Assembly (NCBI GenBank): GCA_013360915.1
Contig: JABWAT010000002.1
Location: forward strand, 384,098-448,097
Direction: 5' to 3'
DNA from: Bacteroidota bacterium
GTDB lineage: Bacteria > Bacteroidota > JABWAT01
Length of the DNA stretch: 64,000 nt
Below, piece by piece: positions 53,039 through 56,926 of the stretch (its first letter is position 1; every line of letters starts with the position of its first letter). The notes below the pieces were generated by a model. The model had not been told where the DNA came from and made no database searches. It saw nothing but the letters and a program-made list of their open reading frames with translations. The translations under genes were made by a program, and so were the position numbers.

Positions 53039-53068
53039 TTGACAGGTAAGGGGTTTTGGTCGTATAAT
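53039..53068 (+). promoter_or_regulatory. consensus-like promoter of the sulfate-assimilation operon
   Basis: TTGACA (53039-53044), 18-base spacer, TATAAT (53063-53068). TATAATTG also matches TAnnTTTG at all but one position. Transcription should start near 53075. Confidence 0.8.
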
Positions 53069-53070
53069 TG

Positions 53071-53105
53071 TCCGTAGAAATTAAATATTCAGAATAATCT
53101 ACGGA
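53071..53105. promoter_or_regulatory. operator-like inverted repeat at the cysH transcription start
   Basis: A perfect 8-bp inverted repeat TCCGTAGA-N19-TCTACGGA begins 2 bases after the -10 box and so overlaps the expected start site. Candidate repressor site (a cysteine or sulfur regulator); an mRNA 5' hairpin is an alternative. Confidence 0.65.
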
Positions 53106-53115
53106 TAGGTGCCGT

Positions 53116-53220
53116 TTGACACACTCCAGCCCACGCCTTGCCATTTCAGACTTTGTTGCCGTCGGTCCCGCCATCCGCTTTCCTGTTCTTTCTGTTTCTT
53201 CTCTGTGTTGTTGTTGTTGA
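53116..53220 (+). CDS. candidate cysteine-sensing leader peptide (34 codons, ends in four Cys codons)
   Basis: A short frame with TTG start at 53116; GGATAGG at 53103-53109 stands 6 bases before it. No in-frame stop occurs until TGA at 53218-53220. The last residues are Ser-Ser-Leu-Cys-Cys-Cys-Cys, with the Cys codons (all TGT) at 53206-53217 directly before the stop. Nothing else in the peptide resembles a protein domain. It lies between a strong promoter and cysH, the first gene of cysteine biosynthesis here, so its likely job is to gauge Cys-tRNA. Poly-Cys leader ORFs with this role are known in mycobacteria. A TTG start and lack of ATG keep confidence moderate. Confidence 0.6.
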   Translation: MTHSSPRLAISDFVAVGPAIRFPVLSVSSLCCCC

Positions 53221-53284
53221 TTTCACGGTTGAACCCGTCATGAAACCGACTTTGTATGTCCGCATCAACCAGAAAAGAAAACAG
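53183..53284 (+). promoter_or_regulatory. predicted leader RNA pairing that sequesters the cysH start region
   Basis: CTGTTTCTTCTCTG at 53192-53205, just before the Cys codons, can pair with CAGAAAAGAAAACAG at 53270-53284, 8 bases before the cysH ATG: 13 Watson-Crick pairs with one bulged A and one mismatch. A second tract CTGTTCTTTCTG at 53183-53194 could pair with the same target (12 pairs, two bulges). A ribosome stalled on the Cys codons would cover the upstream strand. Confidence 0.5.
53221..53245 (+). promoter_or_regulatory. small hairpin directly after the leader-peptide stop
   Basis: TTTCA-CGG / CCG-TCA-TGAAA: an 8-bp stem with a 3-base bulge, starting at the base after the TGA. No T-run follows, so it is not an intrinsic terminator. 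Confidence 0.4.
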
Positions 53285-53292
53285 AATAAACC

Positions 53293-53961
53293 ATGTCACC
53301 CGAACAACTTGATACCCGGCTCGGCCCCCTGAATGCGAATGAACGAATAGCACTGGCTGCCTCGGTGATTCCCCACAGCGAATTGGCAGTTTCATCGGCT
53401 TTCGGTCCCTTCAGTGCTGCCTTCCTTCATTTGGTTACCCGTCAGATTCCCGATATTCCCGTTGGCTTCCTCGATACCGGCTATCATTTCACCGAGACCC
53501 TTTCATTCCGCGATGAACTGGCCAGCCGGTTATCGCTGAACCTTCAAATTATCAGACCTTCCATATCTCGGGCGGAATTTGAAAAGAAGGCCGGTGATAA
53601 ACCATGGGATACCGACCATGAAGGTTGCTGCAAAGTAAACAAAGTCGATCCCATGGATGACTGGTTGAAAGGATTTTCGGCCTGGCTGAGCGGTATCCGG
53701 TCGAATCAGACTCAGAACCGTGCCGGTCTCGGATTTGCGGTTCTCAATTCACGCGGTCAGTTTAAAATCCACCCCATTCTCGACTGGACATCCAAACAGG
53801 TCTGGGATTATATCAATGAGCATCAGTTACCCGTTCATCCGCTCTTTTACAAAGGATTCACCAGCCTGGGGTGTGAACCATGTACGCACGTGGCCGGTCC
53901 GGGAGAGGATCGTTCAGGAAGGTGGAAGGGGTTAAAACAGGAGTGTGGTCTGCATATATGA
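53293..53961 (+). CDS. cysH: assimilatory APS reductase (CysH family, [4Fe-4S] type)
   Basis: Reduces adenylyl sulfate to sulfite using thioredoxin. The 222-residue protein has the PAPS-reductase fold (GFLDTGYHFTETLSF, FKIHPILDWTSKQVWDYI). It carries the two Cys pairs that bind a [4Fe-4S] cluster in APS-type enzymes, Cys112-Cys113 (GCCKVNKVDPM) and Cys194/Cys197 (LGCEPCT), and the catalytic Cys218 in QECGLH. The Cys pairs favour APS over PAPS as substrate. The ATG at 53293 lacks a Shine-Dalgarno but follows an A/G-rich tract. No ATP sulfurylase is in the window. Confidence 0.93.
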   Translation: MSPEQLDTRLGPLNANERIALAASVIPHSELAVSSAFGPFSAAFLHLVTRQIPDIPVGFLDTGYHFTETLSFRDELASRLSLNLQIIRPSISRAEFEKKAGDKPWDTDHEGCCKVNKVDPMDDWLKGFSAWLSGIRSNQTQNRAGLGFAVLNSRGQFKIHPILDWTSKQVWDYINEHQLPVHPLFYKGFTSLGCEPCTHVAGPGEDRSGRWKGLKQECGLHI

Positions 53962-54734
53962 AAACCAAATCGTTTATTCCCGGAACTGTGTATCTGACGG
54001 GTGCCGGCATCGGAAGTCCCGATCTGATCACCATCAGGGCCTGGCAGGCCATCCGGGCAGCCGATGTCATTTTATACGATGCATTGCTGCCTTCTGAATT
54101 GCTTGAGGAGGCCCGGCCGTATACTGAACTGATTTACTCGGGAAAACTGGCCGGCCGGCATTCCATGTCACAGGAAGAGATCAACCGGAGACTGATTCAC
54201 CATGCCAGATCAGGCAAAGTGGTTATCAGGCTGAAAGGGGGAGATCCGATGATATTTGGCCGTGGAGGTGAGGAGGCACTGGCCTTGCTGGAGGCAGGCG
54301 TTCCGGTGGAAATCATTCCCGGTGTTTCCTCGCTTCAGGTATGTGCGGCCTCTGCAGGCATTCCGCTTACCCACCGGGGAATAGCCACTGGCTTCAGGGT
54401 GCTGTCGGGCGATCCTGGTTCTCTGAGCCGGCTGAATGCAGGAGACCTGTCCCGCTCGGAAGAAACACTCGTGTTTTTCATGGCCCGTGACCGGTTCCGG
54501 GTTATCATCGCTGCCTTGCTTGATGCAGGAATGGAAGGATCCATGCCGGTTGCCTGGGTTTCCGATGCAGGAGGGCCGTCCCAGACTGTTCAGATCGCTG
54601 AGCTGAAATCGGCTGAAAACCTGAATCCGGATCCCGATCAGCCCGGACTTCTGCTCGTGGGCCGAACGGTTTCCCTTCATTTCCAATTACCGGTCCCGGG
54701 AGAGGTATCGCATGCTGTATCCCATTTTCTATAA
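53958..54734 (+). CDS. cobA: uroporphyrinogen-III C-methyltransferase (SUMT)
   Basis: Methylates uroporphyrinogen III to precorrin-2, the first step to siroheme (258 aa). Motifs: VYLTGAGIGSPDLITIRAWQ, DVILYDALLP, VIRLKGGDPMIFGRGGEEAL and IIPGVSSLQVCAASAGIPLT. It overlaps the cysH stop by 4 bases (ATGA). Together with the next gene it makes the siroheme cofactor for the sulfite reductase at the end of the operon. Confidence 0.92.
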   Translation: MKTKSFIPGTVYLTGAGIGSPDLITIRAWQAIRAADVILYDALLPSELLEEARPYTELIYSGKLAGRHSMSQEEINRRLIHHARSGKVVIRLKGGDPMIFGRGGEEALALLEAGVPVEIIPGVSSLQVCAASAGIPLTHRGIATGFRVLSGDPGSLSRLNAGDLSRSEETLVFFMARDRFRVIIAALLDAGMEGSMPVAWVSDAGGPSQTVQIAELKSAENLNPDPDQPGLLLVGRTVSLHFQLPVPGEVSHAVSHFL

Positions 54735-55293
54735 ACTGGAAGGCCGGTTGGTGGTTCTGGTGGGTGGTGGAAAACTGGCCATCGAAAAACTGAACGGTCT
54801 ATCCGGCACAGGTGCCCGACTGCTGGTCATCTGCCCCGATATACATCCCGAGGCGCTGGACCTCTGTCTCAAACTGAAGGGTATCTGGAAGAAAGAATCG
54901 TTCAATGGCCATTTTCCGGATGAGACCACCCTGGTGATTGCGGCCACCGATGATCCGGTGGTTAACGGGCAGGTCTTTCAGGAGGCACGAAGGAAAAAAA
55001 TCCCCGTGAATGTGGCCGATCAGCCCGATCTGTGCGATTGGTACAATGGGGCGGTCATCCGTCGCGGATCGTTCACGCTCGCACTGTCGAGCAGTGGTGA
55101 TGCGCCATCCTTACTGAAATGGATCCGGAAAGAATTGGATGAACAGATACCGCCCGATGAAGCGGTGTTTCTGGAGTCCCTGAAAATGATCAGGGATCAG
55201 ATGAAGGAGAAGGGGTGGACTCCCGGCCAGCGTGCAGAATGGTTCACAGCCCGGTTTGAGGAATTAAAAAAGGCGGAGTGGGTTCATGAGTAA
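54712..55293 (+). CDS. precorrin-2 dehydrogenase / sirohydrochlorin ferrochelatase (Met8/CysG-N type)
   Basis: NAD-dependent oxidation of precorrin-2 and iron insertion to give siroheme. The 193-residue protein has a Rossmann start (LEGRLVVLVGGGKLAIEKLN), LVIAATDDPVVNGQVFQEA, VNVADQPDLCDWYNGAVIRR and ALSSSGDAPSLLKWIRKEL. The ATG lies inside the end of cobA (23-base overlap) with an upstream GGGAGAGG. Whether this copy does both reactions cannot be told from sequence. Confidence 0.9.
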   Translation: MLYPIFYKLEGRLVVLVGGGKLAIEKLNGLSGTGARLLVICPDIHPEALDLCLKLKGIWKKESFNGHFPDETTLVIAATDDPVVNGQVFQEARRKKIPVNVADQPDLCDWYNGAVIRRGSFTLALSSSGDAPSLLKWIRKELDEQIPPDEAVFLESLKMIRDQMKEKGWTPGQRAEWFTARFEELKKAEWVHE

Positions 55294-56926
55294 GGTAAAT
55301 GTTGAAGAATTAAAACGGTCCAGCAACGGTCTGCGTGGTAACATTGTCGACGAAATGACCAATGGGGTCCCGAATGTCACCGATGAAACCTATCAGTTGC
55401 TGAAGTTTCATGGCATGTATCAGCAGGATGACCGTGACCTTCGCCGCGACCTGAAACAAAAAGGCGAGTTACCAGCCTATTCATTCATGCTCAGGTCCAG
55501 AATTCCGGGAGGAGTAATTACCCGGGAACAGTACCTGGCCCACGATGACATTGCTGACCGGTTCGGAAACGGAACCCTTCGGCTTACCACCCGGGAGGCA
55601 TTTCAGGTCCATGGGGTGCTTAAAGGAGATGTAAAACCGGTTATTCAGGCGATAAACCATGCACTGCTTTCAACCATTTCGGCCTGCGGAGATGTGAATC
55701 GAAACGTGGTGGTCACCCCGGATCCGGCCGACAACCCGGTGAATCGTGAACTGCAGGCCCTCGCCATCCGGATTGCCAACCACCTGACTCCCAAATCGAG
55801 AGCATACCACGAAATCTGGCTGGATGAAGAACCTCAGTCGGGTGAACTGGAAGAGCCCATCTACGGAAAAACCTATCTGCCCCGGAAATTCAAGATTGGA
55901 ATCACCAGAACCGGTGATAACAGCATCGATATCCTCACTCACGATATCGGCATCGTAGCCATCACCAATGGTGATACCATCACGGACTATCAGTTATATG
56001 CGGGTGGGGGATTGGGTAAAACCCACAACAATGAAGATACCTTTCCCCGACTGGCAGACCCGGTCGGAAGGGTGTCCCCCGATCTGGTTCTGAAGGCGGT
56101 TGAAGCAATGGTGATGGTCCAGCGGGATCATGGTAACCGTGAAAACAGAAAACTGTCCCGCCTGAAATATGTTCTGCACAACAAGGGCGTCGACTGGTTC
56201 CGCTCTCAGACCGAAAAAACAGGCGGTTTCCTGTTCCGTAATGCGGTTACTTTGCCACCGTGGCAGTTCCGTTCCTGGTTTGGATGGACGCCCCAGGGAA
56301 ACGGATTGTTTACGCTGGGATTGTTCGTTGAAAATGGCCGTATTCACGATTCAGGTGATTTCCGGCTGAAAACAGCCCTGAAAACCATAGCAACGACCCT
56401 CTCATGTTCTTTCAGGATTACTGCCACTCAGGATCTGCAGATACGGGATGTGACACCTGCCCAGCAGAAGGTGGTGGAAGTTATTTTAGCTGATCATGGC
56501 ATTCGTCTTCCCGACACCATTGCACCGCTGAGACTTCAATCCATGGCATGTCCGGCGTTACCAACCTGCGGATTGGCCATCAGTGAAGCTGAACGGGTTT
56601 TTCCTGATATTATCACTGAACTGGAAGGCATTGCGAAACAGGTTGGCCTGGAATCCCTCCCGGTGGTGACCCGGATGACCGGGTGTCCCAATGGATGTGC
56701 CCGGCCGTATACGGCCGAACTGGCCTTTGTCGGACGCAGCGGAACGAAGTATGAAATCCACGCCGGCGGGTCGCCGGGTGGTGACCGGTTGACCACCGTT
56801 ATTCACCCTGGGCTCGATCAGTCTTTATTTAAACCGTTTTTTACGGAGTTGTTTACACGTTTTGCTGACAATCGTCAGGCCGGAGAGTCATTCGGTGATT
56901 GGGTGGTAAGGCAAGGAGAGTGGTGA
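55286..56926 (+). CDS. assimilatory sulfite reductase hemoprotein (siroheme, [4Fe-4S])
   Basis: Six-electron reduction of sulfite to sulfide. The 546-residue protein has the two-repeat sulfite/nitrite reductase layout: LRTTREAFQVHGVLKGD-like region (FGNGTLRLTTREAFQVHGVL), LSTISACGDVNRNVVVTPDP. The siroheme-[4Fe-4S] cysteines lie in ACPALPTCGLAISEAER and MTGCPNGCARPYTAELAFVG, near residues 420-470. No CysJ flavoprotein is nearby, so ferredoxin may be the donor. It overlaps the previous gene by 8 bases and ends the operon. Confidence 0.9.
   Translation: MSKVNVEELKRSSNGLRGNIVDEMTNGVPNVTDETYQLLKFHGMYQQDDRDLRRDLKQKGELPAYSFMLRSRIPGGVITREQYLAHDDIADRFGNGTLRLTTREAFQVHGVLKGDVKPVIQAINHALLSTISACGDVNRNVVVTPDPADNPVNRELQALAIRIANHLTPKSRAYHEIWLDEEPQSGELEEPIYGKTYLPRKFKIGITRTGDNSIDILTHDIGIVAITNGDTITDYQLYAGGGLGKTHNNEDTFPRLADPVGRVSPDLVLKAVEAMVMVQRDHGNRENRKLSRLKYVLHNKGVDWFRSQTEKTGGFLFRNAVTLPPWQFRSWFGWTPQGNGLFTLGLFVENGRIHDSGDFRLKTALKTIATTLSCSFRITATQDLQIRDVTPAQQKVVEVILADHGIRLPDTIAPLRLQSMACPALPTCGLAISEAERVFPDIITELEGIAKQVGLESLPVVTRMTGCPNGCARPYTAELAFVGRSGTKYEIHAGGSPGGDRLTTVIHPGLDQSLFKPFFTELFTRFADNRQAGESFGDWVVRQGEW

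Follow-up and report, generated by a model that had tools for sequence, protein, structure and literature searches.

How sulfur assimilation is matched to cysteine supply in the phylum Bacteroidota has not been worked out, as far as we could find, and amino-acid leader attenuators in the phylum are mentioned in general terms only (F. psychrophilum, PMC9723704). The locus studied here lies in a 64,000-nucleotide stretch of DNA from a Bacteroidota bacterium, referred to as the window, and raises the question of whether a short open reading frame (ORF) ending in four cysteine codons, upstream of cysH, could adjust the sulfate-assimilation operon to the availability of cysteine. Our main conclusion, drawn from sequence comparison and computed folding, is that this leader is likely to be a cysteine-sensing translational attenuator.

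The leader ORF, its promoter and the operon

The locus comprises the following features.

53039-53068, + strand: promoter TTGACA-N18-TATAAT, 5' of the leader ORF
53071-53105, no strand assigned: perfect 8-bp inverted repeat TCCGTAGA-N19-TCTACGGA, at the predicted transcription start (from sequence)
53107-53111, + strand: AGGTG, possible Shine-Dalgarno sequence of the leader ORF, 4 nt 5' of the TTG (from sequence)
53116-53220, + strand: leader ORF of 34 codons with a TTG start, ending in CCCC and the stop; translation MTHSSPRLAISDFVAVGPAIRFPVLSVSSLCCCC
53185-53205, + strand: anti-start strand, a pyrimidine tract that pairs with the cysH start region (fold, duplex energies)
53206-53217, + strand: four tandem TGT (Cys) codons, the proposed stall site (sequence, shuffle test, relatives)
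53270-53291, + strand: purine-rich ribosome-loading region of cysH, the partner strand (fold, duplex energies)
53293-53961, + strand: cysH, phosphoadenylyl-sulfate reductase (NCBIfam NF002537, 231 bits, cutoff 154)
53880-54734, + strand: uroporphyrinogen-III C-methyltransferase ORF (TIGR01469, 230 bits, cutoff 185), with its true start probably near 53958
54712-55293, + strand: siroheme synthase N-terminal domain protein (TIGR01470, 132 bits, cutoff 62)
55286-56926, + strand: assimilatory sulfite reductase hemoprotein subunit (NF010029, 679 bits, cutoff 457)

The original prediction had described a 34-codon ORF with four TGT codons and a stop 72 nt before cysH, and all its coordinates were reproduced, the stop being the TGA at 53218-53220 and the cysH start the ATG at 53293. 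The promoter that it placed before the TTG-started leader was likewise confirmed, with a match to 12 of the 12 positions of the sigma-70 consensus. Transcription is predicted to start near 53075, about 40 nt 5' of the TTG, so that the leader ORF is predicted not to be leaderless. The TTG start itself counts against the attenuator reading.

The inverted repeat at the predicted transcription start is the sole copy in the genome with fewer than two mismatches, and was not seen in the two close relatives; it may be either an operator or a 5' mRNA hairpin. We rejected it as a regulon-wide operator, the other matches in the genome being no commoner than those of a reversed control pattern. A single tRNA was the only Rfam family above its gathering score in the whole window, and no known leader or riboswitch was matched.

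Chance occurrence of the Cys run was assessed by dinucleotide shuffles of the 224 nt that extend from the -10 box to cysH. At least four Cys codons at a stop were obtained in none of 20,000 shuffles, and at least three in 10 of 20,000. Across the genome the pattern TGY-TGY-TGY-TRA has 20 matches, 18 of them within longer ORFs, leaving two free ones that include the window leader. The other free ORF ending in CCC (L053, G000:C10:42329, minus strand; MCSYRSLLSTHKNNHQSPVCQPVSRFCCC) terminates about 10 nt upstream of a gene for an ABC-F type ATPase. The genome also carries a separate cysC-cysD-cysN cluster, at which no Cys leader was seen; a small ORF between its cysD and cysN (L257, 9099-9449) resembles, from its translation only, four-helix-bundle proteins of the 23S intervening-sequence type.

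Computation shows a conserved leader, its Cys run and its promoter. The class is represented by four genomes in our search set, three of which have cysH, and a Cys-run leader is present in all three. In the two relatives of the window genome (G002 and G003, loci L002 and L003), whose CysH proteins are 54-56% identical to that of the window, the leader ORF starts with ATG, has a Shine-Dalgarno-like purine-rich stretch and ends in SRMTCCC and a stop, approximately 95-100 nt before cysH. The short Cys-ended ORF that was to be looked for in relatives is thus present in both same-family genomes with the operon. Frame, place and stop are as in the window in both, and one of the two has a run of mixed TGC and TGT codons. 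At least three Cys codons at the stop arose in 2 of 5000 shuffles each for L002 and L003. Promoter aside, the longest block common to all three relatives in the alignment is the Cys-run block TGYTGTTGTTGAT, and the promoter element CGGTTGACA with a TATTAT -10 box is likewise found in G002 and G003. The operon of G002 goes on with an ABC transporter with a solute-binding protein, an APS kinase, a CysD-like protein and a CysN-like GTPase.

Predicted pairing of the leader with the cysH start

The tract just before the Cys codons (53192-53205) had been claimed to pair with the cysH start region (53270-53284) through 13 pairs, one mismatch and one bulge, and this is what we obtained; in the minimum-energy fold of 53180-53300 the pairing grows to 53185-53219 / 53260-53291. 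This fold reaches -30.3 kcal/mol (z -3.7), and none of 200 shuffles was as good. In the whole-leader fold, opening the cysH start region (-18 to +6) costs 14.3 kcal/mol when the leader is free. Placing a ribosome on the first Cys codon lowers this cost to 2.3 kcal/mol, and placing it on codons 2 to 4 lowers it to between 4.2 and 6.8 kcal/mol. Free leader and leader stalled at the first codon differ by 12.0 kcal/mol, a value matched by one of 1000 shuffles in which Cys run and start region were preserved. The pairing in the window and its dependence on the footprint of a stalled ribosome are therefore computed properties of this leader.

The proposal that a stall would free cysH is supported in part: in the window the pairing is strong and stall-dependent by computation, but the exact helix is absent from the two closest relatives. 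L002 has an 11-bp complement of its own, of another sequence (p 0.02, at -13.0 kcal/mol), which is not favoured by the whole-leader fold, and the best leader/cysH-start duplex of L003 is not significant (p 0.60). The whole-leader fold test of the stall effect was negative in both L002 and L003 despite their Cys run, and this failure is a point against the attenuator reading.

Cysteine leaders and start pairing in other lineages

Leaders with at least three consecutive Cys codons were searched for in the 240 nt before cysH in f6, a family of the phylum that is only distantly related to that of the window. They were found at 21 of the 30 nearest f6 cysH loci, for an average of 0.125 in shuffles and none on the antisense strand, and at 1 of 20 more distant ones; a second search of this family yielded 84 new loci, 44 with a Cys-run leader. 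The gap from leader to cysH is 36-116 nt in most loci. The leader peptides, about 13 to 45 residues long, are unrelated apart from the Cys run and, in the sister species, the SRMT. A terminator scan of 22 f6 loci gave one weak candidate; between leader and cysH, no intrinsic terminator was detected in the window, L002 or L003 by a scan that did detect those of L198 and L204, its positive controls.

The promoters of f6 carry TAnnTTTG-type boxes, from which the phylum would probably be Bacteroidota. A palindrome, TCTAC-N5..9-GTAGA, lies at the cysH promoter and transcription start of 51 of 66 f6 loci (for example L169, L170 and L177), a count made with a loose pattern and no shuffle baseline. 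The same palindrome occurs inside the start of cysH at 9 of 66 loci, compared with 2.3 in shuffles, and at 0 of 66 deeper in the gene (L173 and L180 are examples, at about +35 to +55 of the coding sequence). It is probably the operator of some regulator acting alongside the leader.

Duplex energies were computed for pairs of 26-nt windows, one upstream of the Cys run (A) and one around the cysH ATG (B), and compared with those of shuffled leader windows. Over 25 diverged leaders the signal peaks at A -40 to -14 and B -20 to +6, where the Stouffer Z is 6.0, and Z stays within 2 of zero in most of the remaining cells; in f6, complementarity to the cysH start is a general feature of the tract some 14-40 nt 5' of the Cys run. 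Binding is stronger in matched leader/start pairs (-9.6 kcal/mol) than in permuted ones (-6.9 kcal/mol; p about 1e-4), a result that, taken with the shuffle control, speaks against an effect of base composition alone. Examples are L182, L188 (AUGCAAUUGU with AACAAUUGCAA), L179 and L181, where the leader start UUGAUGG faces CCAUCAA or CUAUCAA, and L172, in which the cysH AUG is part of the pairing. We also considered, and discarded, a duplex formed by the Cys codons themselves and the cysH start, as it gave no matched-pair signal (p 0.98).

When the stall was modelled as one ribosome (mask -15 to +15), a clear effect was seen in the window only, with weaker ones in L182 and L188 and a mean z of 0.1. 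This is accounted for by the position of the signal, 14-40 nt before the run and hence outside that mask. With a mask of -46 to +12, which corresponds to a stalled and one queued ribosome and was picked after the position scan before being applied to new loci, the fold test gave Z 6.7 for all leaders and 6.5 for f6.

A second set of 28 non-redundant, non-overlapping leaders, which belong to the same family as the first set and are thus not fully independent of it, was analyzed with a pairing window fixed before the loci were fetched. The pre-stated window gave Z 2.4 over the 28 leaders; the signal was limited to the same leader rows as before, but the strongest cell (A -30, B 0 to +26, Z 5.1) was not the pre-stated one. 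The fold test gave Z 5.4, with 9 of 28 loci at p<=0.05. Significant pairing is present in about 40% of f6 leaders and absent in about 60%, and the latter are a further point against the attenuator reading. The exact helix is not shared, but equivalents of other sequence recur in f6 above chance. Such a comparison lends support to the release step as a general design rather than as the exact helix of the window, and the same design, with other sequences, appears to operate in part of f6.

In other families of the phylum, Cys-rich leaders precede genes for sulfite reductase, rhodanese, cysteine synthase or PAPS reductase (L197, L198, L203, L204, L223 and L224; gene names were taken from translations, without a profile scan). 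Those before sulfite-reductase/rhodanese operons are rich in both Cys and Met: L197 10301-10393 (-), L198 10277-10372 (-), L204 2226-2342 (+) and L203 10341-10460 (-). An intrinsic terminator follows the leader in L198 and L204 according to the scan, and in L197 by eye, so that these three leaders are apparent classical attenuators for sulfur amino acids, and both attenuator types would exist in the phylum. L204 has a second Cys-run leader (1852-1947, -; MTQLTLLTAINILPSPLFTHLTCACCCCCCS) before a cysteine-synthase-like gene. Outside the phylum, Cys-rich short ORFs lie 26-120 nt before cysD-like genes in Acidobacteria, namely Granulicella sp. dw_53, G. aggregans, Acidobacterium sp. S8 and one Acidobacteriaceae MAG (L067 3083-3169, L069 2969-3058, L074 3144-3239, L091 2598-2675). 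The Chloroflexi with the closest named CysH showed no run of at least three Cys codons in the stretch scanned.

On balance, we favour the view that these leaders form a broad undescribed class, located ahead of sulfate-assimilation operons both in Acidobacteria and in several families of this phylum. In many of the members upstream of cysH, the tract 5' of the Cys run would pair with the cysH start and be rebuilt by compensation with almost no sequence conserved, and in related lineages a leader of this kind would be followed by an intrinsic terminator. In such a class the sequence of the regulator would drift almost freely and its logic, a codon run and one helix, would stay; translational and terminator versions of one sensor would occur within one phylum. 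The leaders are short and easily found, and give a sharp prediction for a single reporter experiment.

Mechanism, alternatives and known systems

We infer that the leader is translated and would act as follows. With plentiful Cys-tRNA, ribosomes would complete the leader ORF and depart, and the freed tract before the Cys codons would pair with the cysH start region; cysH, and with it the siroheme and sulfite-reductase genes, which are presumably coupled to it in translation, would then be poorly translated. With scarce Cys-tRNA, a ribosome would stall on the Cys codons and, together with any queued ribosome, would cover the tract and free the cysH start.

A possible, though not probable, alternative is a Cys leader that acts through Rho: when the leader is translated fast and the ribosomes leave, Rho would load on the linker and end transcription before cysH, whereas a ribosome halted on the Cys codons close to the stop would block a C-rich, G-poor loading site, as in tnaC. 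Indeed, f6 linkers have an excess of C over G that averages +6.4 per 45 nt, compared with +0.7 in control 5' regions (p 2.5e-6), the linkers of L002 and L003 contain 12C/2G and 15C/4G, and the Cys run lies at or beside the stop in most leaders; Rho was proposed for actinobacterial leaders on the same grounds (PMC1262725). However, the window linker, with 12C/9G, is not C-rich over G, the pairing signal is not predicted by Rho, and a G-poor sequence 5' of a start codon may simply keep the start unstructured. Since many loci lack pairing, Rho-dependent variants could exist. If a single sensor acted through different output steps, this would account for the strong pairing without a C-rich linker in the window and for the reverse in loci elsewhere.

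Cysteine might also be sensed through translational coupling or re-initiation at cysH, with an incidental pairing in the window. The closeness of leader and cysH in most loci and the many loci without pairing fit this idea, which we nevertheless regard as distinctly improbable, as 72 nt is long for re-initiation and the pairing signal clearly exceeds chance and was repeated in the second set. That the leader serves to make a small functional Cys-rich peptide, for example one that binds metals or is a redox binder, and does not sense its own translation, is very improbable: Cys-rich peptides can bind metals, but a functional peptide should be conserved, and these differ in sequence and length and keep their run at the stop. 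That the TGT triplets came together by chance in pyrimidine-rich 5' sequence can practically be dismissed even though TGT repeats readily expand through slippage, given the shuffles of the window, the same frame, place and stop in two diverged relatives, one with mixed codons, and the leaders of another family.

The attenuator reading places the window leader next to several known systems. Actinobacteria, including mycobacteria, have poly-Cys leader ORFs (Seliverstov 2005, PMC1262725; Shell 2015, PMC4633059), and cysteine-responsive attenuation by such a leader was shown in M. smegmatis, according to two reports (PMC9094748, PMC9031893). The original prediction knew of none in the FCB group, and no description of such a leader for Bacteroidota or other FCB bacteria was found in the full-text literature searched, in which subscription papers are sparsely covered, so that this is weak evidence of novelty. 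The window leader is related in kind to the mycobacterial poly-Cys upstream ORFs and apparently undescribed here: both are short ORFs with a Cys run near the stop, before sulfur or cysteine genes, and no conserved intrinsic terminator is reported for the mycobacterial ones. The latter are reportedly leaderless, going by the title of one paper, whereas a 5' leader is predicted here, the promoter lying about 50-75 nt upstream of the ORF, and the sister species have Shine-Dalgarno-like stretches. Phylum, operon and peptide sequence all differ as well.

For the actinobacterial leaders, no conserved hairpin was found and Rho was suggested (PMC1262725), whereas here a covarying helix involves the cysH start. 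The LEU element before leuA of Actinobacteria is similar in that its leader ORF contains consecutive codons for the amino acid under regulation, but in that element the Leu codons themselves bind the Shine-Dalgarno box and a pseudoknot takes part (PMC1262725), and here it is the tract before the Cys run that pairs. Attenuators of the trp/his type share a run of end-product codons in the leader peptide and differ by their intrinsic terminator, which is lacking in the window, L002 and L003. In attenuators of the ermC type, as proposed here, a stalled leader ribosome frees a sequestered start site. Their signal is a drug-bound ribosome and their switch involves two hairpins; in the window leader the signal would be amino acid supply, and one ribosome-covered helix would suffice.
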